DNA of 34,471 nucleotides from a virus: positions 1 through 34,471 of the IMG/VR virus record IMGVR_UViG_3300027770_000153. One strand, 5' to 3'. Each line of letters starts with the position of its first letter. The first letter of the stretch is position 1. The position numbers were made by a program, and so were the translations under genes. Under the pieces are notes generated by a model, which worked only from the letters and a program-made list of their open reading frames with translations, did no database searches and was not told the DNA's origin. This document shows, in pieces, positions 13,227 to 32,200 of the stretch.

Positions 13227-16200
13227 TTATTCTTTATTATTAAATATTAATTTATTTAAAATTTCTTTCAATTCTTTAATTTCTTCTGATTGCTTTTTTA
13301 TTATTTCATTTTGTTCTTTAAATCCTTCAATAAATAATCCTGCAAAACTTCCGTAAGAAATACCAAATTCATCATTTACATCATCATAGGTAACAACTTC
13401 TGGAAATATATCCACAGTTTCCTGAGCTATTAATCCTGTTTGTCTTTTTTCTGCCATTTCAGTTGTAATGTTTGCAGCTTCATCCATTATTCTATTGTAA
13501 TAAACACCTCTCAATTTAAGAATTTTTTCTAATGCAGATTCAATTGTTACAATATTAGTTTTCTTTCTAGCATCAGAATAAGCTACTATATTACCTGTTG
13601 AATATATACCACCAGATACATACATACCATATGAAGGTGATGTTGAAGAAGTATTTACACCCGTACAGTTATATGGAAAATAGTGATAGAACATCCATCT
13701 ACCAGATTGATAATAACAACCACCATTACCACCAGTATCAAACATACCGGTAACAGGAGTATTACCTACGTCTTGTAAAATACCTGTGTATGAGTTTTTA
13801 TATCCATCCATTCTCCAAGTTCCATATGTGGAGTTATTTGGATACCAATGTGCACTATTTGTGCCTGTGTAGAATCCAACATCTGCCACATACATCCACT
13901 TATACTTAAATGAATAATTTGATGAACCTGCTAATTGAATACACAAATCACTCATATCGTAATCGGAATAAACTCTTGTTCCTTCATAAGAACCAGCGTT
14001 TGCTCCTAATTTAATACCAGTATGATATGCAATTCTTAAATCCGGATACGGATAACTCCATCCACCACCTTCTTGGAATATATTATATGCATTTGTACCT
14101 TGCCCAGAGTTACCACCCGTTCCAATAAAATCTATACGAGCTACTCTTACATAGTTGTTGAATTCACCACTACTCATTTGAGAATATCCAGTTGGGTCAG
14201 TATAATATGCTGTATTATTACTATCGTAAAATATTGGTGCTCTTAATGAGTTACCTCCAGTTAAATAATCGTTAGCATAAACCGTACCACCAGTATACCA
14301 CTCCATTACTCTCCAGTTAGAACCACTACTATTCATAGTGTTTAAGTAAAGATTTCCTGCTGTACTAAATCTGAAGTATGATGACCCAAATGATGTGTTT
14401 GGTCTACTAAAGTAATAAGGTCCAGAACCATCATGGTATGTGTTATCCACATTAAATCCAAATCCTCCCCAATCCCAAGTGTTACCAGGTTCAGAAACCC
14501 ACATTTGCAATTGACATAATCCAGTACCAGCTCCGTTGTTTCCAGGTAATAATCTAAGTCTAGAAGTAGTATTACCATGAGCTCCACTCATTCTCAATCC
14601 ACCATATATTTCGGTAAATCCGTTAGGGTCTATATAATATCCAGTATTATTGGTATCATAGAATATTGGTGCTCTAAAACTTTCTGTGTTTTCCGTATAT
14701 CTTTCAATTACATGTCTAGTAAACCAAGAACCACCACCGCCAGGAGTTTCTCTTAAGTAAACAGTAGTACCTTGAGGTTTATACCACTCACAAGAACCAC
14801 TACCCCATTGATGAATACGGAACATAGCAGGTTCAGTAGAGAAGTTACCAGAAGTTGATACCTCTAACGAACGGAACGAACCATGTGGTTTGCCCCATCC
14901 TTGTCCATAAGGGTCATGCGTCCACCAACCACTATTATCAGTATATATACCATTTGTATCACCACGTACTTTGTAACCTAAAAATTCGTTAGTTCTACTA
15001 CTACCATTAGGGTCTACAAAAAATCCAGTATTATTACTATCATAGAATATTGGTCCTCTAACAGAACCGGCCATTTCTAAATAGCTACTTTGTACAAAAC
15101 CATTTTGCACATTACCGATACGGAATTCAATAAATGATTCAGCTCCTATACAAAAATATGGATTATTATAAACACCAGGTCTTCCCCATGCTGCCCCAAC
15201 TCTTACATTAGAACTAACACCTTCAGCGTTTAAGACGTGAATACCAGAAGTATCTCCGGTAAAAGTTACACCAGCCCCATTCAAATTTAAATTAAATGTA
15301 GCGTTAGGGTCTAACCAATATGCGGTGTTATTTTGGTCGTAAAATATTGGTGCTCTTGAACTACCATTTGAATATGAGTTACCACTTCTATCAACATAGA
15401 AGTCAGTAGTACCCCAAGAACCATTTCTATGTCCGTGGTCATGATTAATTCTGAAATATGATGAGTCTGCGTATCCATATCCACAAGACCAAGTATTACT
15501 ATCATATCCATTAGAGAATAAAATAGAAGGTCTATCAGTACCGCCATTTGCTTCAATACGGAATTCTCCAGTTATACCCCAAGAGTGGTTACCATAACTA
15601 TTTGTTACCAACATAGTACTATTATTACCAGGTGCTGAACCTGTTTTTGTAATAGTTACAACTTGTCCATTTGATTGTCCGAAGTTACTGAATCCATCCG
15701 GATTTACATAATATGCAGTATTATTTCTATCATAGAAAATTGGTGCTCTAGCACTTGTATTAAATTCTACATATGAACCATCTTGATTTGGATAGTTTCT
15801 TTGTGACCAATCCCAGCTACTTCCATTAACAGCACCTCTACCACCATACAAATACCATGCCCCATCGGTAGCTATGTGTTGTAACATATATCCTAAGTTA
15901 CCATTAGTTGATGTTTGATATATAGAAGCGTAAGTACCAGTAATAACAAGTTGTGCATGAGATGAACCAAATGGATTACTACCCCAATTTCCATTAACAT
16001 TAAGGTATTGTAAATTAGTACCATCAAGTCCATCAAAATAGTATCCAGTATTAGATATATCATAATATCTTGGTGCCAAAACACCATAGTCTGCTCTTAG
16101 ATAATTATCACTCTTACCAAATGAACCAATTTCAGTTCCTGTAAATGGTGAGTTATTAAAAAATCTAGTTCCACCATATTGAGATGCTGCGCCAATATCA

Positions 16201-19200
16201 ACACCAGTATGCCATGCTAATTGTAAGTGATTACCAGAATAATATCCATTGTTATAGTTTCTAACATGAATCATATAATATGGTTGCGAATCACTTCTCT
16301 GTCCCCAAGTAATACCACTATCTGTTGATGCTTGTGATGGGTCAGTTGTGGAATTTGAAAGATTTATATGTCTTGTCGTACCACTACCACTACCTGTTCT
16401 AGCTATAAATGTACCACCACTATCATACCAATAATCTTGATAAACTGCTGGAGTTCGTAAACTTGATTTTACCCATACTATACCATCATTTCTTACTTCA
16501 AATGCTGCTCCTCCAGTACCAACACCACTTATAGCAAATCCTTCAGTTGCTCCACCACCAGTCCAAATAATATTTTTTAATGCCGCTCCTAAATTTGTTG
16601 TACTTGTTGTTGTTCTAAATCTAGCTCCCCATACATCCGGTTCACTATTAACAGAAATCAATGCGTTATTGGGAATATTTAAAGTAGATGTTAATGTTAA
16701 TATACTAAATCTAGAAGTACTTGCAGGGTCAGCTAAGTAAGTACCATCATTATTATCAATAAATTGAGTTGCGTAAATAGCTCCCAATACAGTTGTATTT
16801 GCAGCTAATGTGTTATCAATTTCTTCAATTTTAAATCCTGCTATTTCAGCCTGTCCACTATATCCACTATATAGATAATTGTGTAACCAACCTAATTGCA
16901 TGAATTTTGCATATCCATACCAAGTATACCCAGCACCAGATCCAGCTGGTCCAATTGTCATTGTATATTCCGTCCAAGACGCAGGTGGAACGCCATTCCA
17001 ATAATAAGGTTGTCCCCAGCCACCATTATCAGGCTGTCCGTAATTGTAAGTTGCTTGCGTAAATGAAAGATAACAATATGGATTACCAGACGTTGCTCTA
17101 ATCCAAGCTGAAACTTTGTAAGTTTTAGTTGGGTCAATTGCTACCCATCCAGATTGTCTATGTCCACTCCACGCACCACTACCAGCAAATGCAACATCAC
17201 CAATAGGTGCATCACTTAATCCACTTCTATATGTTGTATCGGGCCAAATAAATCCACCATCTGCTCCACTCCAGTTTCTAGTAAAATATTTACCATCCGG
17301 AACAAACATACCAAATAAAGATGAACCATTATTAGTCCTAGTTGAAATATTACCTCCAGTTTTTACAACAGATAATATTGATGTACTATTAGGGTCTAAA
17401 TAATATGAATTATCACTATAATCATAATATCTCTGTGCGTACATATAACGATATGCTGTCATATCACCATTTGCCATATCCATTCTTAACATTACAGTAT
17501 TCGTACCACCACCAACATTATTTTCAATACCAGATGTTTGTGCTCTAGTAAAATCAATTGCGTTTATTGGATTGTTATGCCAAATACCCCAAGGTGTAGA
17601 TTCTTCTTTATAAATCCAAGGAGAGGCCTCACCACCACTACCAGGATTTCTAGAACGAAGGAATACAGGATATGTAGTTGAGTTAGTTGGTGTCATTGTA
17701 ATACCTTCTGCAGAAGCACCACCATTCATAATAATATTTGAACCATTATTAGCAATAGTAACACTACTAGCAAAATACCCAGCACCACTTTCGTTTACTG
17801 AAAATAATTCGTTTGTTGATTTTACTGCGTTATTACCTACTATGAATTTTCTATCAGTTTCATTATTATTAGAATCAATGCTAACAACAACATTCCCAGC
17901 ACCAGCCATATATAATGGGTTACCAGATGCATTATTTTGTAAAAGAACTACATCATATGTGTTATCTCTATATAAACCTGCCCCAGTATCAGATAGATAA
18001 AGTGCACCCCCATTAGCTCCCGTATTTACATATATTGGGCCTGATGACCTAAATGAGTTATCTGTTTGGTTAAATTGCCATTGAGAACCTGCAGCTGTTG
18101 CCGTTCCCATATGAATACCAATTGTATCTAAATTACTATATGCACCTGCTGTACCTTGGAAATAACTTATACCATATGCATCAGCGTTACCAAATCTCCA
18201 AATTGGATTTCTGACATTACTAGCATATGTTGTACTATAAAATCCAGATGTACCAGCCGCATATACTCCAGTTGTTGATATTATTTGATTAAACGTTACA
18301 TTATCTGATGTTCTAACATTTTGATTCATTAAATAAACCTCAGTTGCTCCTATACCAGTATCTATTGTACCAGTTATTACGATATTACCACTACCACCAA
18401 TATTACCAGCTACATAAGTATCTGCATCATGATACCATCTCAATCCACTCTCATTCCAATAAAATTGTCTTGTAGCTTGAGTTCCTCTTTTAACTTCTAT
18501 GCCAGCATTTTCAGTTGGTGTAGTTGCTGCCGTTATATCTGCATTTAATGTGATGATATTATCACCTACATTTAAAGTTGTTGTATTAATATATGTTGTT
18601 GTACCACTTACAGTAAGGTCACCACTAATTGTAGCGTTACCGGTTACTGCCAATGTAGTACCATCAAAAGTTAAGTTTGCATTTACATTTGCATTTGGTG
18701 CTCCACTTGCTGCTAATGTAATTACACCATTTGTAGTTGTGCCTGTCAATGATAATAATCCAGAAGAACCTGATGTACCACGTGTACCTGATGTGCCACT
18801 TGTACCACTACTTCCTGATGTGCCAGAAGAACCTGCCGTTCCACCACTACCACTTGTGCCAGAAGTTCCTGATGAGCCGCTTGTACCAGAAGTTCCTGAT
18901 GAGCCATGTGTACCTGATGTGCCACTTGTACCACTACTTCCTGATGTGCCAGAAGAACCTGCCGTTCCACCACTACCACTTGTGCCAGAAGTTCCTGATG
19001 AACCGCTTGTACCAGAAGTTCCTGATGAGCCACTTGCTCCAGAAGTTCCTGATGAGCCACTTGTGCCACCACTACCAGAAGTTCCCGATGTTCCACTACT
19101 ACCGCTCGTGCCAGATGTGCCACCACTTCCACTCGTGCCACTACTTCCACTCGTACCACTACTTCCAGCTGAACCGCTTACTCCGGATGTACCACTACTA

Positions 19201-21182
19201 CCGCTTACACCAGAAGTTCCTGATGAGCCACTAGTCCCAGAAGTTCCTGATGAGCCACTTGCTCCAGATGTTCCACTACTACCACTTGCTCCAGAAGTTC
19301 CTGATGAGCCACTAGTCCCAGAAGTTCCTGATGAACCTTGTACTCCACTTATTCCAGAAGTTCCTGACGTACCGCTTGTGCCAGATGAGCCAGCAGAACC
19401 AGAAGTTCCTCTTAATCCCGCTATACTAATTGTCCAAGATGATGCAGTTGTTGTACCTAAATTATAATCAGCTGCTATGGCAAATGATGTACCACCTGTG
19501 ATAGTTACAGTTCCTTCAAAATAGTTTGAAACAGTATTTACAGCTCTTACTCTAACTCCAGTTATAAATGCACCTTGCTGATTTGTTGTTAATGTTATTG
19601 TTCCAGTTGATGCCGGTGTTGCTGATGTAGTTGATGTTACATTACCATATCCAGCTCCAGTACTTCCCGATGTGCCAGATGTACCAGCCGAACCGGATGA
19701 ACCTTGTACTCCACTTATTCCTGATGTACCAGACGTTCCCGATGAGCCACCACTACCACTTGTTCCCGATGAGCCACCACTACCACTTGTTCCCGAGGTA
19801 CCACTTCCTCCACCTGCTCCACTTATACCAGATGAACCACTACTTCCTGATGAACCACTACTTCCCGATGTACCTGCACTACCAGAAGTTCCTGATGTGC
19901 CACTTGTTCCCGATGTTCCATTTGTACCACCACCTCCAGTTATACCACCACTACCAGCACTACCGCTTGTTCCAGAAGTTCCCGATGAGCCACTTGTTCC
20001 TGAAATTCCTGATGAACCACCAGTACCACTTATACCAGATGTACCTGCTGATGCATTTGTGCCAGAAGTACCTGCTGACCCAGAAGTACCTGCTGACCCA
20101 GAAGTTCCCGATGTGCCACTACTACCGCTTGTGCCAGAAGTTCCAGCTGAGCCCGTTGTACCACCACTACCAGAAGTTCCTGCTGAACCCGTTGTGCCAG
20201 ATGAACCTGTTGAACCGCTTGTGCCAGATGTTCCTGATGTGCCAGAACTTCCACTAGTCCCGCTACTTCCGCTTGTTCCACTAGTCCCGCTACTTCCAGA
20301 TGTTCCAGCTGACCCAGTTGTACCCGATGAACCTGTTGAACCAGAAGTTCCCGATGTACCAGCACTGCCAGTAGAGCCGGATGTACCACTACTTCCAGAA
20401 GTTCCTGATGTGCCACTACTACCGCTTGTTCCAGAAGTTCCAGAAGTTCCCGATGTGCCGGCTGAACCAGTTGTTCCCGATGTGCCAGAAGTTCCTGATG
20501 TACCAGACGTTGCTGCTGCTGTTTTAAAACCAATTTTACCAGTTGTAGAATTATAAACTAATACATCATTTGATAAATCGGGTGATAAAGAACCTACTCC
20601 GAATGATAATGAACCAGTAATTCCTACACTACCAGTAAATTCTTGCTTATCATTTTGTGCATCACCAAACTTTGATGAACCACTTGCGTATATTATAGAT
20701 GATGAAATATATGTTGTAAATAATTCTAATGTATTTATTTTTCCAGCTACATTTATATCACCTTTAAAAATACCACTACCAGTTACAATAAGATAATCTC
20801 TTATAGTTACTGAATTATTTATTTCCAATCCCCTATTTGGAGAAATTATTGCTGTTGCTGAACCCGATTTTAATCTATCTAAATCACCAATAGATGCTGC
20901 GTTTATATTAAATAATCCACTACCATCACCTTTAAATAAAGATGCTGATATTGATGATGAAATATTAGCCGAGCCACTAATTTGTGTATTTGCTTTTATT
21001 TGTAATGAAGAACCACTAGTTACTCCAATTATATTTGTTTGTACTGCAGATGAAGTAAAATTTCCTACAACACTTACAGATTCAGATGAGGCATTTAAAA
21101 TAGAAGAACCACTTACAAAAAGTGATATACTATTTACACTAGTCTGATTTAAACCATTTGGATTATTACCGTTAAACGCCAT
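13227..21182 (-). CDS. Giant tail fibre / receptor-binding protein with collagen-like shaft and C-terminal S74 chaperone
   Basis: A 2651-aa fibre. Order: N-terminal beta modules (1-220; ISSSIIYASGSSKFGD and LKSGSATAIISPNRGLEI are shared with the other giant fibre); Gly-X-Y shaft at about 227-511; an 80-residue globular insert (512-591); a second shaft at about 592-808; a VGDNIITLNADIT / ENAGIEVKRGT module common in phage fibres; a jelly-roll-like segment at about 1280-1456 (AIDPTKTYKVSAWIRAT) resembling carbohydrate-binding modules; and a region from about 1260 to 2330 with about eight copies of a RAPIFYDxNNTxYYxDP motif. It ends with a peptidase S74 intramolecular chaperone (about 2536-2651): SDARKK with Ser2536 and Lys2541 as the cleavage dyad, RQTGLIAQETVDIFPEVV, and a terminal coiled coil. 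The family is known to trimerise fibres and then cut itself off at the Ser. It is likely to bind a host glycan. Confidence 0.9.
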   Translation of the reverse strand: MAFNGNNPNGLNQTSVNSISLFVSGSSILNASSESVSVVGNFTSSAVQTNIIGVTSGSSLQIKANTQISGSANISSSISASLFKGDGSGLFNINAASIGDLDRLKSGSATAIISPNRGLEINNSVTIRDYLIVTGSGIFKGDINVAGKINTLELFTTYISSSIIYASGSSKFGDAQNDKQEFTGSVGITGSLSFGVGSLSPDLSNDVLVYNSTTGKIGFKTAAATSGTSGTSGTSGTTGSAGTSGTSGTSGTSGSSGTSGTSGSSGTSGSTGSAGTSGTSGSTGSSGTTGSAGTSGSSGTSGTSGSSGTSGSSGTSGTSGTSGSTGSSGTTGSAGTSGSGGTTGSAGTSGTSGSSGTSGTSGSAGTSGSAGTSGTNASAGTSGISGTGGSSGISGTSGSSGTSGTSGSAGSGGITGGGGTNGTSGTSGTSGTSGSAGTSGSSGSSGSSGSSGISGAGGGSGTSGTSGSGGSSGTSGSGGSSGTSGTSGISGVQGSSGSAGTSGTSGSTGAGYGNVTSTTSATPASTGTITLTTNQQGAFITGVRVRAVNTVSNYFEGTVTITGGTSFAIAADYNLGTTTASSWTISIAGLRGTSGSAGSSGTSGTSGTSGISGVQGSSGTSGTSGSSGTSGASGSSGTSGASGSSGTSGTSGSSGTSGVSGSSGTSGVSGSAGSSGTSGSSGTSGSGGTSGTSGSSGTSGTSGSGGTSGSSGTSGASGSSGTSGTSGSSGTSGTSGSGGTAGSSGTSGSSGTSGTSGTHGSSGTSGTSGSSGTSGTSGSGGTAGSSGTSGSSGTSGTSGTRGTSGSSGLLSLTGTTTNGVITLAASGAPNANVNANLTFDGTTLAVTGNATISGDLTVSGTTTYINTTTLNVGDNIITLNADITAATTPTENAGIEVKRGTQATRQFYWNESGLRWYHDADTYVAGNIGGSGNIVITGTIDTGIGATEVYLMNQNVRTSDNVTFNQIISTTGVYAAGTSGFYSTTYASNVRNPIWRFGNADAYGISYFQGTAGAYSNLDTIGIHMGTATAAGSQWQFNQTDNSFRSSGPIYVNTGANGGALYLSDTGAGLYRDNTYDVVLLQNNASGNPLYMAGAGNVVVSIDSNNNETDRKFIVGNNAVKSTNELFSVNESGAGYFASSVTIANNGSNIIMNGGASAEGITMTPTNSTTYPVFLRSRNPGSGGEASPWIYKEESTPWGIWHNNPINAIDFTRAQTSGIENNVGGGTNTVMLRMDMANGDMTAYRYMYAQRYYDYSDNSYYLDPNSTSILSVVKTGGNISTRTNNGSSLFGMFVPDGKYFTRNWSGADGGFIWPDTTYRSGLSDAPIGDVAFAGSGAWSGHRQSGWVAIDPTKTYKVSAWIRATSGNPYCYLSFTQATYNYGQPDNGGWGQPYYWNGVPPASWTEYTMTIGPAGSGAGYTWYGYAKFMQLGWLHNYLYSGYSGQAEIAGFKIEEIDNTLAANTTVLGAIYATQFIDNNDGTYLADPASTSRFSILTLTSTLNIPNNALISVNSEPDVWGARFRTTTSTTNLGAALKNIIWTGGGATEGFAISGVGTGGAAFEVRNDGIVWVKSSLRTPAVYQDYWYDSGGTFIARTGSGSGTTRHINLSNSTTDPSQASTDSGITWGQRSDSQPYYMIHVRNYNNGYYSGNHLQLAWHTGVDIGAASQYGGTRFFNNSPFTGTEIGSFGKSDNYLRADYGVLAPRYYDISNTGYYFDGLDGTNLQYLNVNGNWGSNPFGSSHAQLVITGTYASIYQTSTNGNLGYMLQHIATDGAWYLYGGRGAVNGSSWDWSQRNYPNQDGSYVEFNTSARAPIFYDRNNTAYYVNPDGFSNFGQSNGQVVTITKTGSAPGNNSTMLVTNSYGNHSWGITGEFRIEANGGTDRPSILFSNGYDSNTWSCGYGYADSSYFRINHDHGHRNGSWGTTDFYVDRSGNSYSNGSSRAPIFYDQNNTAYWLDPNATFNLNLNGAGVTFTGDTSGIHVLNAEGVSSNVRVGAAWGRPGVYNNPYFCIGAESFIEFRIGNVQNGFVQSSYLEMAGSVRGPIFYDSNNTGFFVDPNGSSRTNEFLGYKVRGDTNGIYTDNSGWWTHDPYGQGWGKPHGSFRSLEVSTSGNFSTEPAMFRIHQWGSGSCEWYKPQGTTVYLRETPGGGGSWFTRHVIERYTENTESFRAPIFYDTNNTGYYIDPNGFTEIYGGLRMSGAHGNTTSRLRLLPGNNGAGTGLCQLQMWVSEPGNTWDWGGFGFNVDNTYHDGSGPYYFSRPNTSFGSSYFRFSTAGNLYLNTMNSSGSNWRVMEWYTGGTVYANDYLTGGNSLRAPIFYDSNNTAYYTDPTGYSQMSSGEFNNYVRVARIDFIGTGGNSGQGTNAYNIFQEGGGWSYPYPDLRIAYHTGIKLGANAGSYEGTRVYSDYDMSDLCIQLAGSSNYSFKYKWMYVADVGFYTGTNSAHWYPNNSTYGTWRMDGYKNSYTGILQDVGNTPVTGMFDTGGNGGCYYQSGRWMFYHYFPYNCTGVNTSSTSPSYGMYVSGGIYSTGNIVAYSDARKKTNIVTIESALEKILKLRGVYYNRIMDEAANITTEMAEKRQTGLIAQETVDIFPEVVTYDDVNDEFGISYGSFAGLFIEGFKEQNEIIKKQSEEIKELKEILNKLIFNNKE
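18760..20504 (-). repeat. Collagen-like Gly-X-Y coding repeats in the S74 fibre
   Basis: Two blocks of 9-bp-type repeats encode G-T-S, G-S-S, G-S-A, G-S-G triplets (residues 227-511 and 592-808), interrupted by an 80-residue domain encoded at about 19410-19650. Synonymous codons vary from triplet to triplet, so DNA identity between neighbours is lower than protein identity. The region is visibly richer in G+C than the rest of the window. Confidence 0.9.
18782..19033 (-). repeat. 126-bp near-perfect direct tandem duplication
   Basis: Positions 18782-18907 and 18908-19033 are the same 126 bases (42 codons, 14 triplets) with one internal difference that I can find (gag/gaa) and a change at the end of the unit. 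Each copy encodes the order GTxGSSGTSGTSG then GSGGTAGSSG. It keeps the Gly-X-Y phase, so it lengthens the shaft without breaking it. Confidence 0.85.
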
Positions 21183-23233: not shown

Positions 23234-26200
23234 TTAACTAAGATTTTTTCCAACTACAAATCCATAATATGTAGTTCCATTATCAAATGTAAAGAATGTC
23301 AATACATCCGTACCAGATGATGTTAATATAGGTGCGATACCACCAGTCCATTTAACACTAACAGGCCACGTAATAGAATATGCTCCTGCGTTTACAGACA
23401 CAAAAGTAAATCCGAATGCATTTGATGCTGGTGCGTTTACTAATGATATTGTTGCAGTACCATTAAATTGTCTTCTGAAATTATTTGCCGTTGAAAGGTC
23501 TAATGTTACACTTCCACCAGTTCCCAAATTATTATAAGTTTCTCTAAATGTTGTAGATGAAATATTTCCTACTACAGATAAAGTTGTACCATCAAATATT
23601 AAATTACTTTCAACATTTGCACCCACCGGTGTTGCGTTATAAGTTATTATACCATTATCAGTTGTTCCAGTTAATCCAAATCCAGATGAGCCCGATGTAC
23701 CAGAAGTTATTCCAGGCGCAGATGTACCAGAAGTTCCTGTGGCCCCAGACGTTCCTGATGTTCCAGAAGAAAAGCCCGGAGCGTTTGTACCACTTGTCCC
23801 ATTTATACCGCTTGTGCCTGTTTGTCCAGAAGTTCCCGATGTGCCAGAAGAATATCCAGGTGCGTTTGTACCAGAAGTTCCAGCAGTGCCACTAACTCCA
23901 GAAGTACCAGAAGTTCCCGATGAAAAGCCCGGAGCGTTTGTACCAGAAGTTCCAGAAGTACCATCTACACCAGCATTACCAGTTGAACCATTTATTCCTG
24001 ATGTACCACTACTTCCAAACATTGTTCCATTTAAACCAGAAGTTCCCGATGTGCCACTTGTACCAGAAGTTCCCGATGTGCCACTTACTCCAGAAGTTCC
24101 TGATGTGCCAGAAGTTCCCGATGAACCAAACATTGTACCATTCAATCCAGAAGTTCCTGATGTGCCGCTTGTGCCAGAAGTTCCCGATGAACCACTTACT
24201 CCAGAAGTTCCCGATGTGCCAGATGTACCACTACTTCCAAATAGCGTACCATCTAATCCAGAAGTTCCTGATGTGCCAGAACTTCCTGATGTGCCAGCTG
24301 AGCCTGATGTGCCAGATGTTCCCGAAGTACCACTACTTCCAAATAACGTACCATCTAATCCCGATGTCCCAGAAGTTCCTGATGAGCCACTCACTCCAGA
24401 AGTTCCTGATGTACCACTTTCTCCAGAAGTTCCCGATGAACCACTTTCTCCAGATGTACCACTACTACCAAAGAAAGTTCCATCTAATCCACTAGTACCT
24501 GATGTACCATCCATACCAGAAGTTCCTGATGTACCAGCTCCAGAAGTTCCTGATGTGCCATCACTTCCAGAAGTTCCCGATGAACCAAAGAAAGTTCCAT
24601 CCAATCCAGATGTTCCCGATGTGCCGCTTGTTCCTGATGTTCCAGAAGTTCCAGCTCCACTAGTTCCAGAAGTACCATCACCACCACTCGTACCACTACT
24701 TCCAAAGAAAGTTCCATTTAAGCCCGATGTTCCAGATGTGCCGCTTGTTCCTGATGTTCCAGAAGTTCCAGCTCCAGAAGTTCCTGATGAGCCACCACTT
24801 CCAGATGTTCCACTACTACCAAAGAAAGTTCCGTTTAATCCAGAAGTTCCAGAAGTACCCGATGTACCATTTTGTCCAGAAGTTCCTGAAGTTCCATCAC
24901 TACCATTTATTCCACTTGTGCCAGAAGTTCCGCTTGTGCCGCTTGTACCACTACTACCAAAGAAAGTTCCGTTTAATCCAGAAGTTCCTGATGTACCACT
25001 TACTCCCGATGTACCACTACTTCCACTTGTGCCAGAAGTTCCACTACTTCCAAAATATGTTCCATCAAGTCCAGAAGTTCCCGATGTACCATTACTACCA
25101 TTTATTCCACTTGTGCCAGAAGTTCCTGATGTACCGCTTGTTCCCGATGTGCCATTACTTCCAGAAGTTCCCGATGAACCATTACTTCCAGATGTGCCGC
25201 TTGTACCAGCACTACCATTAGTACCGCTCGTACCGCTTGTGCCGCTTGTACCAGAAGTTCCATTACTTCCCGATGTGCCACTTGTACCATTTGAACCGCT
25301 CGTGCCGCTTGTGCCATCACTACCACTTATTCCAGAAGTTCCCGATGTACCAGAAGTTCCATTAGAGCCGCTTGCTCCAGAAGTTCCATTAGAGCCGCTT
25401 GTGCCAGAAGTTCCATTAGAGCCGCTTGCTCCAGAAGTTCCTGCTGAACCATTTGTGCCAGAAGTTCCATTACTACCATTAGTTCCTGATGTGCCAGAAG
25501 TTCCATCACTACCACTCGTTCCTGATGTGCCGCTTGTTCCTGATGTTCCATTAGTACCAATACCACTCGTACCACTACTACCACCACTACCATTTGTTCC
25601 AGAAGTTCCTGATGTGCCATCACTACCACTTGTACCGCTTGTGCCAGAAGTTCCCGCTGAGCCCGTTGTACCACCACTACCAGACGTTCCCGATGTGCCA
25701 GAAGTTCCTGATGAGCCGGATGTACCAGACGAACCATCTGAACCCGATGTGCCAGAAGTTCCGGCGCTTCCAGTAGTCCCAGAAGTTCCTGATGTGCCAC
25801 TACTACCGCTTGTTCCAGAAGTTCCGCTACTGCCAGATGTACCAGCTGAACCAGTTGTACCCGATGACCCCGTTGAACCAGAAGTTCCTGATGTACCCGC
25901 CGAACCAGTTGTGCCAGACGTCCCACTACTTCCACTTGTGCCACTACTTCCTGAAGTTCCTGAAGTTCCGCTTATACCATCACTACCAGAAGTTCCTGAT
26001 GTGCCAGAAGTTCCTGATGAGCCAGATGTGCCAGATGAACCTCCACTTCCAGACGTACCACCACTACCAGAAGTTCCCGATGAACCTGCTGCTCCACTAC
26101 TTCCGCTTGTGCCAGAAGTTCCTGATGAGCCACTACTTCCACCCGTACCCGTTGAGCCGGATGTTCCTGCGGTGCCGCTTGTACCGGATGAACCACCTGT

Positions 26201-29200
26201 ACCAGTTGACCCAGAAGTTCCCGATGTACCACTACTACCCGTTGACCCAGAAGTTCCTGATGTGCCACTACTACCACTTGTTCCCGATGAGCCGCTTGTT
26301 CCACTACTACCAGCAGTACCGCTACTACCAGTCGAACCACTTGTGCCGCTTGTACCAGATGACCCACTACTTCCGCTTGTTCCAGAAGTTCCTGATGTGC
26401 CAGATGTTGCTGATGTACCGCTTGTGCCAGAAGTTCCTGATGTGCCGCTTGTTCCACTACTGCCAGAAGTTCCCGATGTGCCGCTTGTGCCAGAAGTTCC
26501 CGATGTACCATCCGAACCAGTTGTTCCTGATGTGCCAGAAGTTCCCGATGAACCATTACTACCACTTGTGCCAGAAGTTCCCGATGTACCATCCGAACCG
26601 GTTGTGCCAGAAGTTCCCGATGAACCACTTTCTCCCGATGTGCCAGATGTGCCAGCTGAACCAGTCGAACCAGCTGAGCCAGCCGTACCAGCAGAACCTC
26701 CTGTACCAGAAGAACCTTGTACACCTGCTATATTTCTTTTTTCTAATCTTTTTGTTATACTATTCCAAACTACTACATCTTCGGATGAACCAGATATAAG
26801 TGCATTTATTGATAAGCTACCACTCACACCTAAACTACCACTAATTGTAAGTGATGCATTTATTGTTTGGTCTTTATTAATTTGTAAAAAAGATGCCGTA
26901 TCAGTATTACCAGAAGATAATGCAAACATTGCGTAAGATGCTGTATATGCCAATGATGCAGTACCAACAAACATTGAAGCCGTTTGTGTTTTTTGTATAA
27001 AGTTTGTTGTATCTAATGCGCCCCCACCACCTAATATAGTTACCAATACACCATTTGAACCAGATGATGTCACATCAACACCAGAACCAGTAAAATGAAT
27101 TTTTCCTACTTGTGCTTTTACTAATGAACTGGTTTGGTATATAAATAATTCAGTACCACCACCAGCTCCTGCGTTTAATGCATATGATGCGGTTAATGCG
27201 TAAGAAGAACTTACTGCACTAAACACCGCCATTGACGATGTTTGAGAATTTCTAACTAAATTTTGAATATCACTCAATGCTGATAATGATGCTGAATCAA
27301 ATCCGGTAACATTTTTTGCTGTTTCTGCAACGAGTGCGTATGATGCAGAAAGTACAGAACCAATAACTCTATCACCCTGTATTGTACCACTAATTAAAGA
27401 ACCACCACTACCAATTACAACATGCCCAGAAGTTAATCCAGAAAATTTAACTTGAATAGTATTTGCATCTATCGATTTAATTGTACCAGCCATAATCTGG
27501 TCTTCCGAACCAGTTGCATATACCTGAACTATTGGATACAAAATATTTAAATTATGTATAACAGTCAAATCACTTACATTACTAAACCCTACAGTTTGAG
27601 TTAATGATGTTTCAGGTTGTGGAATATAATGTCCTCTAGTTGGGTCAAATCTTAAAATATTATAATCAATACTTGCCGTAGGTCCATTTCCCTGATATGC
27701 GTATGTTCCTAATAAACCTCCACTTACTATTGGAGAATATATTGAGGTACTTCCAGTTATTTTATTAGCTCTTAGATTATTTCCAACATATACATCTCCC
27801 CAAATACTAGCTGATGCGTTTACTATAAATCCTTTATCAGGAGAAATTGATGCAGTAAATGAACCACTTTTTAATATAAATGTTTCAAATGATATATTTG
27901 CTAAACTAATATTTGTTAAACCACTACCATCTCCAACATATGCAGAACCACTTTGGAGTACCATATTCCCACCACTAACAAATACCGAACCACTTACAGT
28001 TAATGAACCAGAAAATATTCTAACAGATGTATTTACCTCAAATCCTTTATTTGGAGAAATTATACCCTGAGCTGAACCAGATTGAATTCTATCTAACTTA
28101 AGGTCTTGTAATGCGTTTGCAGGAATATTAAATAATCCACCACCATCACCAATATAAAGTGCGGCAGTTATAGCTGTATTTACATTTAATTGATTTGGAC
28201 TTATTATAGCTTTACCAGAACCAGATTGAATTCTATCTAATTGAAGGTCTTGTAATGCTGATGCAGGTATATTGAACAATCCACCGCCATCACCTTCAAA
28301 ACGAGATGCTGATATTGAACCACTAATATTAACCGAACCAGTAAATATAGAACCATAGTAAGAACCAGAATTAGAACCTACGCTAGAAAACGTACCTTTA
28401 GTTGTAACAACAAATTGTATTCCACTTTGTACGGATGCAGTTGCTGAACCACTTGCTATTAATGGTGCTGCTGATGCTTGTACGTTTGTTAATTGAGAAC
28501 CATCTCCACTAAATGAAAATGCTTTAACACTACCACTTACATCAATAGAACCAGTAAATCTAGAACCAATAGCTGAACCAGTTGCTCCAGTTGTTACTAC
28601 AAAAGAATTTCCACTTTGAACCGATGCAGTTGCAGAACCACTACCAATGAAAGGTGCTGCAGCTGCTTGTACATTACTAATATATCTACCATCACCTAAT
28701 ATAAATTGAGCTTTTAAACTACCACTAACATCAACACTACCAGTTATAAGAGTACCAATTTGATAATCTAAACCAGAACCTGTTGCTCCAGTTGTTATTA
28801 TAAATGTATTTCCACTTTGTACGGATGCCGTTGCTGAACCACTTGCTATCAATGGTGCTGCGGTCGCTTGAACATTTGTTAATTGAGAACCATCTCCTAT
28901 AAAATTAAATGCTCTTAATGAACCACTAACATCAACCGAACCAGTGAATTGAGAACCAAAATTAGAACCACTAAAAATATTAGCTGCTATTACTCTAAAT
29001 CCAAATACAGGAGATACGGATGCTGTTACAGAACCTGATTTAATTTCAGTACTAATAAGTGCATCTTCTGTTAATGCTGAACGAGGAATATTTCTTAAAT
29101 AAGTACCAGTACCATATATGAATGAAGATGAACCAATATAAATTGCTCCACTAACATCATTTACAAATAAACTACCACTAATATCAACTGAACCAGTAAA

Positions 29201-32200
29201 TCTAGAACCAATTTGTGTAGTAAACGAACCAGATTCATCAATTGAAGATGTAAATGGAGTTGTTACTCTAAATCCAAAATCCGGAGATACGGATGCGGTT
29301 ACTGAACCTGATTTAATTTCTGATGATACTAATGCATCTTCTGTCAATGCTGCTCTAGGAATTTGTCTTAAATAAGTACCTACTGCATATAAGAATGAAG
29401 ATGAATCTATTCTAATACTTCCACTAAAATCAGAACCACTTACAAATGATGCTACTCTAAATCCAAAATTAGGAGATACAGAAGCCGTTACACTACCACT
29501 AGCAATTCTAACAGTATCCCCAGATATTGCTGATTGAGGTATATCAAACAAACCTTTACCGCTACCACTAAACATAGATGCGGTAACATTACCAATTACT
29601 TTTGTTTCTCCAATTAATTTTATTTCAGCAGGAACATATAATGCATCAACCACATTAATAGTACCAGCCATTGATGAGTGAAATTGACAATTATAATAAA
29701 GTGTATTAGGTGCACTACCAGAAACTAAAAAATTTATAGTTCCATTATCAGCTCCATTATTTGTTACCCAAGTATCGTATGTATTACTAGGGCCAGTACT
29801 ATTTACTGTTTTAATTAAGAATGGATGTCCTACTGCTTTTACATTAAATGTATAGTTTAGATTTCTAACTAAAGTTAAAGTTGGGTTTGAACCACTTACT
29901 AATGCATTACTTATATTATATAGACCACTACCATCATTTGTAACAATAAATACCTTATCTATTTCATAATCAGGTATTGCTCTTGCTGATGATGATACAA
30001 TAAAACTTCCACTAATTGTAGAAAATGTATTTACTCTAAGTCCATAATCAGGACTAATAGATGCAGTTGCCGAACCACTTGCAATTCTATTAATTTTAAA
30101 TGATAGAGCAGATTCAGGAATATCAGATAATCCAGCACCGCTACCACTAAAAAACGAACCAGTTTCAACTCTAATATATCCACCACTTACAAATAAGCTT
30201 CCGCTAAATTGTGAACCACTATCTATTGATATTACTCTAAATCCAAAATTAGGTGATACAGAAGCAGTTACACTACCACTTTTAATTTCAGTAGATATTA
30301 ATGCATCTAATGTTAATGCTGAACGAGGAATATCTTTTAAACCAGCACCACTGCCACTAAAAAATGAACCAGTCCCAACTCTTATATTTCCGTAATTTAC
30401 AAATAAGCTTCCAGTAAATTGAGAGCCACTTTCTAATGATTCAACTTTAAATCCATCATTTGGAGAAACAGATGCGGTTACACTACCACTTACAATCCTA
30501 AATACTTCCGATGATAATGCAGAACGAGGAATATCAAATAATCCAGCACCACTACCACTAAATACAGATGCAGATATTGAACCAGAGAAATTTGATGTAT
30601 TTGCAAAGACTTGAAATCCTTTATTTGGAGAAATCGATGCAGTAACACTACCACTAAATATTTTTGAAGTATCTAAATTAGAAAGTGCTGAAATCGGTAT
30701 ATCAAATAAATTTTTACCACTACCACTAAATGAACCCGAATTTAAAAATACACCAGCTCCACTTATAAACAAGCTTCCACTAAATTGTGTACCCTTTTCA
30801 GTAGATTCTATTTTAAATCCATATAAAGGAGATACAGATGCAGTTACACTACCAGATGCTATAAATGTTGATAATAGTGCATCCGGAGTTAATGCTGTTC
30901 TAGGAATATTAAATAATTTTTCACCACTACCACTAAAAAATGAACCAGACCCTAATGAAATATTTCCACTTACAAATAAGCTTCCAGTAATTCCCAATCC
31001 GCCAATAATAGTAGAACCAAAATCAGTAGAGGTAACTACAAATCCCAAATTAGGTGCTACAGATGCCGTTACTGAACCCGATATAATTTTTGTTGCTACT
31101 TGCGGTGGTACAATAATATTTGTTAATCTACTACCATCTCCTTGAAACGAACCACTAATATTAGAACTACTGATTTCGTTGGAAATAATAATATTTGCTC
31201 TAAGGCTTCCACTTATATCAACAGATGATGTAAATTGAGAACCATATACAACAGACCCACTTATATTAGTTTTATTAGTTTCAACTCTAAATCCATAATC
31301 AGGATCAACAGAAGCAGTTATACTACCACTAGCTATTCTAGTTGAATCTCCTGTAAATGCAGAACGAGGTATATCAAATAATCCCTTACCACTACCACTA
31401 AACATTGATGCAGTAACAGTTGATTTAAATACAACTTCTTTACCTACAATTAACGAACCTGTGATATTTGTAGTTCCAATAATTTCAGTATCACTTATAA
31501 TTTTAAATTCAGCCGGTCTTTGTATGATACTATCAACTATATTAATAGTGCCCGCCATTGCTAAATGGAATTGGCAATTATAATAAAGTGTATTTGGTGC
31601 ATCATATGGTACTACAAATGTTATTGTTCCATTATCAGTTCCATTATTTGTTACTCCAGTATTATAAAGATTTCCTGTGCCTGTTGAACTTATTGTTTTA
31701 ATATAAAATGGATGACCTGATGCATTTATATTAAATGTATAGGATAACCCCCTTACTAAATTTAATGTTGGATTATTTCCAAAAGCTGCATCAGCAAATG
31801 TATATGCAAGTGTACTAGCATTAGTTACATTAAAGTTAGTATTTAATGATTCTGTTGCGTAATATGTAGCAGATGATGATATTATCATACTTCCACTAAA
31901 TGTAGAAAATGTATTTACTCTAAGTCCATAATCAGGACTAATGGATGCAGTTACACTTCCACTACCAATTTTTGAAAGGTCTAAATCTTTTAATGCTTTA
32001 ATTGGTATATCAAATAATCTAGCACCACTACCTGAATAAGATGAGCCAGATGCTAATTCAATACCTCTAGCCCCACTAACAAATAATGAACCGGTAAATT
32101 GAGAACCACTATCTACAGAAACAACAATAAATCCAAAATTTGGAGATACAGATGCTGTTACAGAACCGCTTGTAATTAAAGTACTTAATAAAGCATCGGG

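Follow-up and report, generated by a model that had tools for sequence, protein, structure and literature searches.

Rusticyanin, AcoP, plastocyanin and the N-terminal cupredoxin domain of the Hyphomicrobium denitrificans nitrite reductase (2dv6) are type-1 cupredoxins, and they share the fold and the order of the ligands with a predicted domain that we have found twice in a giant phage tail fibre. The identity to these proteins is low (about 14-22%) and, unlike them, the phage domain is located in a virion fibre and has no known redox partner. The ligand loop of amicyanin has the spacing C-x2-H-x2-M. The same loop is found in the C-terminal domain of the copper nitrite reductase 9cck_A, in the azurin 2xv0 and in the phage domain. 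In contrast to amicyanin and 9cck_A, the first His of the phage domain is part of a GHPF motif that resembles the HPxHxH of multicopper oxidases, enzymes in which HPxHxH and HCH are the motifs of the trinuclear cluster.

There is prior evidence of phage fibres that carry metal. T4 gp37 bears iron at HxH sites, and metal sites have been reported or proposed for this protein and for the fibre of Alteromonas phage R22Y, as we propose here, but those sites hold iron, coordinated by octahedral His, and involve no cupredoxin (PMC11705849). The passages of that article considered here concern iron only (PMC11705849), and those of PMC10966104 contain no mention of metal, cupredoxin or plastocyanin, the one "copper" in them being an EM grid. 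Among the matches listed in the open-licence PMC literature no paper places a cupredoxin in the tail of a phage. As a type the domain is known, and its location in the virion and its spread through cyanophage tails are undescribed among those matches.

Two predicted cupredoxin domains in a giant tail fibre

We have analyzed the IMG/VR virus record IMGVR_UViG_3300027770_000153 over its whole stretch of 34,471 nucleotides (the window). The neighbours of the fibre gene (Table 1) include genes for tail sheath, tail tube, baseplate hub and a baseplate wedge subunit, so that it belongs to the tail module of a phage with a contractile tail, and the collagen-like part of its product lies towards the C-terminal side (Pfam Collagen, E 7.6e-95). 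The initial annotation had described two segments 629 residues apart, with the ligand sets His529/Cys575/His578/Met581 and His1158/Cys1204/His1207/Met1210 and a His-to-Cys spacing of 46 in both; a script run on the open reading frame returned the same residues and the same distances. The two copies are 58% identical. C575 and C1204 are the sole cysteines of the fibre, and its eight His include the four of the two ligand sets.

Table 1. Positions in the window of the fibre gene, its predicted cupredoxin domains and their putative copper ligands
Feature	Position	Strand	Basis
Giant tail fibre gene, 3354 aa	33298-23234	minus	PHROG tail-fibre families and Pfam Collagen
Predicted cupredoxin domain 1, aa 478-591 (114 residues)	31867-31526	minus	AlphaFold2, Foldseek, VIA
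Codon of putative ligand His529, in GHPF	31712..31714	minus	sequence script
Putative ligand loop C575-x2-H578-x2-M581	31556..31576	minus	sequence script and AlphaFold2 strand order
Predicted cupredoxin domain 2, aa 1107-1220 (114 residues)	29980-29639	minus	AlphaFold2, VIA
Codon of putative ligand His1158, in GHPF	29825..29827	minus	sequence script
Putative ligand loop C1204-x2-H1207-x2-M1210	29669..29689	minus	sequence script and AlphaFold2

Both copies were modelled with AlphaFold2. For domain 1, with an alignment that included 62 family members, the model had eight strands, a mean pLDDT of 95.1 and a pTM of 0.88. The first His (residue 52 of the model) is in the loop between strands E42-48 and E54-57, the Cys (98) ends strand E93-98, and the second His and the Met (101, 104) precede strand E105-111. 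Domain 2 was modelled as aa 1047-1280, that is with 60 residues on either side, from 38 sequences; its strands follow the same order, and the block-mean pLDDT was 92-97 for residues 61-170 of the model, with poor prediction towards the outer ends of the flanks. In the models the two copies show the eight-strand, Greek-key-type beta sandwich of the cupredoxin fold, and the strand positions put the ligands in the canonical loops of a type-1 site. Structure prediction had been suggested as a check of the proposed copper sites, and its outcome agrees with them in fold and in strand position. Both segments are thus predicted to be true cupredoxin domains, by fold and by putative site.

Comparison of the domain 1 model with the PDB by Foldseek gave 24 chains at E<=1e-3. 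The titles of 23 of them name copper proteins or cupredoxins (one title is silent), among them AcoP (E 4.8e-5), rusticyanin, nitrite reductase, laccase, CueO, purple cupredoxin and plastocyanin; the query-normalised TM-scores were moderate (0.44-0.58). The top VIA-align match was 2dv6_A for both domain 1 (Z 11.0, rmsd 2.3 over 93) and domain 2 (Z 10.5, rmsd 2.6 over 97).

Sequence relatives and family assignment

A single-sequence search of the PDB gave just 4 matches, with E values of 0.97 or worse, and profiles were needed. The family profile retrieved 9cck_A (E 4.2e-4, improving to 2e-4 with a wider profile) through its C-terminal cupredoxin domain, with YICTLHPWMKG aligned against the family YYnCqxHxxMxG. 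The alignment has no His opposite the first His of the family, so this sequence link covers the Cys-His-Met loop only. The wider profile also reached auracyanin B (E 0.012) and the azurin entry with the shared loop spacing, and six of its 12 matches at E<=10 were copper proteins. Matches to the interleukin-21 receptor (four times), a ribosomal protein and a laminarinase were taken as chance.

PF00127 matched neither the window domain at E<=1, nor any of 62 relatives at E<=0.01, nor any of another 10 proteins at E<=0.05, so that by this test the domain is a cupredoxin by predicted fold and site, not a member of the plastocyanin/azurin family. Pfam and NCBIfam named no copper family for the window domain. 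The rusticyanin family TIGR03095 matched one of the 62 relatives (E 0.006) and left the window domain without a match. For the At5g54830-like family PF25489 the window domain scored 17.3-17.7 bits, under the curated cut-off of 27, and 23 of the 62 relatives matched at E<=0.01; with a best value of 1.5e-6, some of them may pass that cut-off. A multicopper oxidase or laccase was considered and rejected, as GHPFYIK / GHPFLIK and YNCQFH are devoid of the extra His of the trinuclear-cluster motifs. None of the members scanned was assigned to a copper family by Pfam, and the domain gains a name from this analysis.

Distribution of the domain

The phage family phrog_677 (gp9, the baseplate wedge tail-fibre connector) matches the domain over positions 288-412 of 412 (E 4.5e-28). 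In the gp9 of S-SSM5 the layout is T4_gp9_10_N followed by the cupredoxin-like domain. The ligands were the same as in the fibre in the gp9 domains that were read, but gp9 has a single copy together with T4_gp9_10_N, and in the window fibre both copies are internal and Pfam reports no T4_gp9_10_N; the two proteins share the C-terminal gp9 domain only. A tblastn search with domain 1 found 337 phage records, all but one named Synechococcus, Prochlorococcus, cyanophage or marine. With the S-SSM5 gp9 domain we found 349, at least 80% of the query being covered in 335 of them, and most, not all, of the 40 matches listed were annotated as gp9 or connector. The domain is therefore the C-terminal domain of cyanophage gp9, present also in other fibres, in a phage subtilase and in bacterial surface proteins. 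The initial annotation had described it within a giant fibre, a frame that was too narrow.

In the phage subtilase (L258, 89-4909; Peptidase_S8, E 6.4e-28) there are two copies of the domain, and two structure matches in BFVD are titled S8/S53 peptidases of cyanophages. A domain-bearing frame of MED4-213 (L357, 2596-6264) looks subtilase-like by eye; it has no Pfam family, and the subtilase link consequently rests on L258 and the BFVD titles. Another domain locus, L356 (514-3306), was listed with the subtilase-linked ones. A few genes away from a domain-bearing gene we observed piuC of P-SSM2 (product "ferrochelatase"; L193, 11140-11733) and, in MED4-213, a 2OG-Fe(II) oxygenase (L357, 1362-1952). 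The "PetE" of Synechococcus phage S-SCSM2R (PQ898602.1, XQU50115.1) belongs to the same family by tblastn, with HPF...CTIHGSM. It differs from the fibre in being a single-domain gene of 168 aa, which adjoins a gene annotated as S8 peptidase, and, since no Pfam family was found for it at E<=0.05, the plastocyanin label is loose.

Outside these phages, short "beta-sandwich" proteins of pithovirus-like and marseillevirus-like contigs in BFVD (A0A481Z6J5 and A0A481YVH3 among others) match the domain model in structure comparison, with E values down to 1.3e-8. Two patterns, one of which spans the Cys loop, were run against 84,980 bacterial and archaeal genomes and gave 31 loci, which include marine alphaproteobacteria, Bacteroidota, acidobacteria and actinobacteria. 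The Bacteroidota relatives are lipoprotein-like, with CHRD or DUF7282 in the two scanned. The domain follows or accompanies collagen-like stretches. In the actinobacterial loci L192 and L191 such a stretch comes immediately before the domain, and the two are paired as they are in the fibres of phages (detected by Pfam in L192). Several marine alphaproteobacterial loci of PS1/OCS116 type (L166, L170, L181 and others) have two tandem domains, the upstream one being longer, and two loci in cell genomes (L179, L190) look by eye like binned phage fibres.

Conservation of the site and its losses

Conservation of the ligands was read from a rescoring of all the loci with a profile in which the ligand columns, four in number, were masked; this removes the scoring bias, not the fetching bias. 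The patterns that covered the Cys loop were one of six, one of two and one of two in the sets used to fetch loci, and a further one that was made from a site-less copy; as most fibre loci came from sets with one Cys-loop pattern, intact sites were favoured. In the first masked rescoring 143 of 158 distinct domains read HCHM, nine had alignments cut short and six differed. The nine, which appear as "H---" rows, are alignments that end early and were discarded as losses. With further loci added, 130 of 137 viral domains were HCHM, five were site-less, one partial and one misaligned. The cellular domains gave 29 of 39, the rest being eight partial, one with Asn for the first His and one, the bacterial relative L183, with Gln for Met. 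Gln is the axial ligand of the stellacyanins. An apparent "TCHN" variant in five loci turned out to be an alignment offset, the true reading being NHP...C-x2-H-x3-M.

The five viral losses read QSGM, QSQM, HDLL, HSDM and HSNM. Cys and the second His are gone together in all five and neither was ever lost alone, as expected of a metal site, suggesting that selection acts on the metal and not on either residue by itself. All five are first copies of fibres; a later copy is intact in four of these fibres, and the fifth, L206, has an intact later domain in the tree. Of the 15 non-ligand columns that are best conserved, the site-less domains retain 14-15 (the intact ones have a mean of 14.6 and a minimum of 9), which implies that the fold has no strict need of copper there. 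The tree requires 4 changes at the fewest, at least two being forced by well supported branches, and, of its four end branches flagged as long, two belong to site-less copies. Descent of the five losses from one event is not supported, the tree of 71 rows over 108 columns resolving poorly.

Among 113 columns (166 full domains in 115 clusters, partial rows and the TCHN loci omitted) the ligands rank 5, 7, 12 and 15 in conservation, the last two being tied with two other columns. For the gp9-type loci the fetching query ended short of the Cys, and one of its six patterns included the first His. HPF and C-x2-H-x2-M, with the four ligands, are present in all 80 (68 read by a pattern that requires HPF and 12 by eye), and 79 of the 80 open frames have one single Cys, although these loci are closely related, with 33 distinct tails among the 68. 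These data support selection acting on the putative copper site, as had been argued from the two window copies. Invariance of the four ligands among homologues, which had been named as a check, holds for nearly all the viral domains and fails in the five site-less ones and in two cellular variants. Free loss of Cys or His with the fold kept had been named as what would speak against the site: five first copies do keep the core, but the losses always take Cys and the second His jointly.

Use of cysteine points in the same direction. Proteins were classed as fibre-type by being long viral open frames with the domain, not by individual annotation, and several of them are cut by the end of the locus. 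In 32 of 36 unlike frames of this kind no Cys was found beyond the ligands. When L143 and L258, which are not fibre-like (by eye for L143, a subtilase by Pfam for L258), are omitted, 62 of the 64 Cys in the remaining 34 proteins are ligands, over 101,582 residues, indicating that these fibres avoid cysteine save at the ligand position; with these two included the count is 65 of 99.

Possible role of the putative copper site

The explanation that we favour, and hold to be more probable than not, is a cupredoxin with a type-1 copper site that acts as a copper-stabilised structural or adhesive module of the fibre. Each 114-residue segment would hold one copper ion in a His-Cys-His-Met site with the short, amicyanin-like loop, taken up with high affinity to judge from known cupredoxins. 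Copper acquired outside the cell would lock the ligand loops and stabilise the tip of the domain, which could then serve as a rigid joint or as an adhesive face. The collagen-like part suggests that the fibre is trimeric, and the domains would be copper-loaded beads in a trimeric, collagen-like shaft; in gp9 the copper-bearing domain would be at the joint of the long fibre. Copper binding is what analogy with cupredoxins leads us to expect of the domain. The structural or adhesive role, which we put forward with less certainty, is favoured because the domain recurs in parts of the particle, with no redox partner in view, and because a copy can lose the metal and still retain its core.

A redox role would suit a conserved site capable of redox chemistry equally well. 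Electron exchange at the host surface might aid adsorption or triggering, for instance by sensing an electron-transport protein or by oxidising a surface group, and the retention of the full four-ligand set, soft Met included, would agree with it, as would the closest folds, which are those of electron carriers (rusticyanin, AcoP, plastocyanin) and copper oxidoreductases. Nevertheless, there is no known partner, Pfam finds no copper-protein family among the 16 other window proteins scanned, the trinuclear-cluster histidines are absent and the first copy is site-less in five sequences; we consider a redox-active virion site unlikely. A soft metal other than blue Cu(II) seems more unlikely still. 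Cys/His/Met sites can hold Cu(I) or Zn, and the site might bind Cu(I) only, Zn or Hg, but the fold, the ligand order and the Met-to-Gln variant all follow type-1 copper proteins.

We also give little credence to the site being a functionless fossil in a plain beta-sandwich spacer, passed between tail genes with its ligands. The mobility of the domain across architectures and the five copies that keep the core with no site are what such a spacer would leave; against this, the ligands are among the most conserved columns and are intact in all 80 gp9-type loci, the site losses are few and joint, and Cys is otherwise almost absent from these fibres. Finally, the fibre might offer copper as a lure or cargo to a metal-uptake receptor of the host outer membrane, the counterpart of the iron "Trojan/Ferrojan horse". 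Iron-bearing fibres such as T4 gp37 with its HxH sites are described (PMC11705849), and the domain is found in tail parts of aquatic phages. Yet there is no receptor evidence, and a connector (gp9) and bacterial surface-type proteins have the domain too. A type-1 site, being buried and tight, would be a poor donor, and we judge this use of copper to be improbable as well.

Coming back to a copper-stabilised module, a wider proposal can be made tentatively, with the odds somewhat against it: that this is a family of virion type-1 copper domains spread through aquatic phages, chiefly in gp9 and fibres, and that the virions are blue-copper particles in which copper is a cofactor of adsorption, possibly redox-sensitive, that ties infection to environmental copper. 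If the site is loaded, copper would be a built-in part of the tail of many marine cyanophages. T4 has six gp9 trimers, and with T4-like copy numbers loaded sites would amount to up to 18 copper ions per virion in gp9 alone.

Relatives of the window phage

We found no grounds for regarding the phage of the window as a cyanophage. The annotated tail proteins closest to it come from Microcystis phage Mel-JY01 and from Flavobacterium immuto phages, and neither psbA (PF00124) nor plastocyanin (PF00127) was present in any of 13 larger related contigs, all of them possibly fragments. Two other IMG/VR records, the contigs IMGVR_UViG_3300027754_000232 and IMGVR_UViG_3300009181_000195, contain domain 1 with 100% identity. 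A second giant fibre gene of the window (13227-21182, minus strand) encodes 2651 aa and has collagen-like repeats and, at its C-terminal end, a Peptidase_S74 chaperone domain. The collagen-like repeats of the first fibre have, in antisense, an open frame of 1065 aa (23739-26936, plus strand), which is perhaps a by-product of the codon pattern of the repeats.
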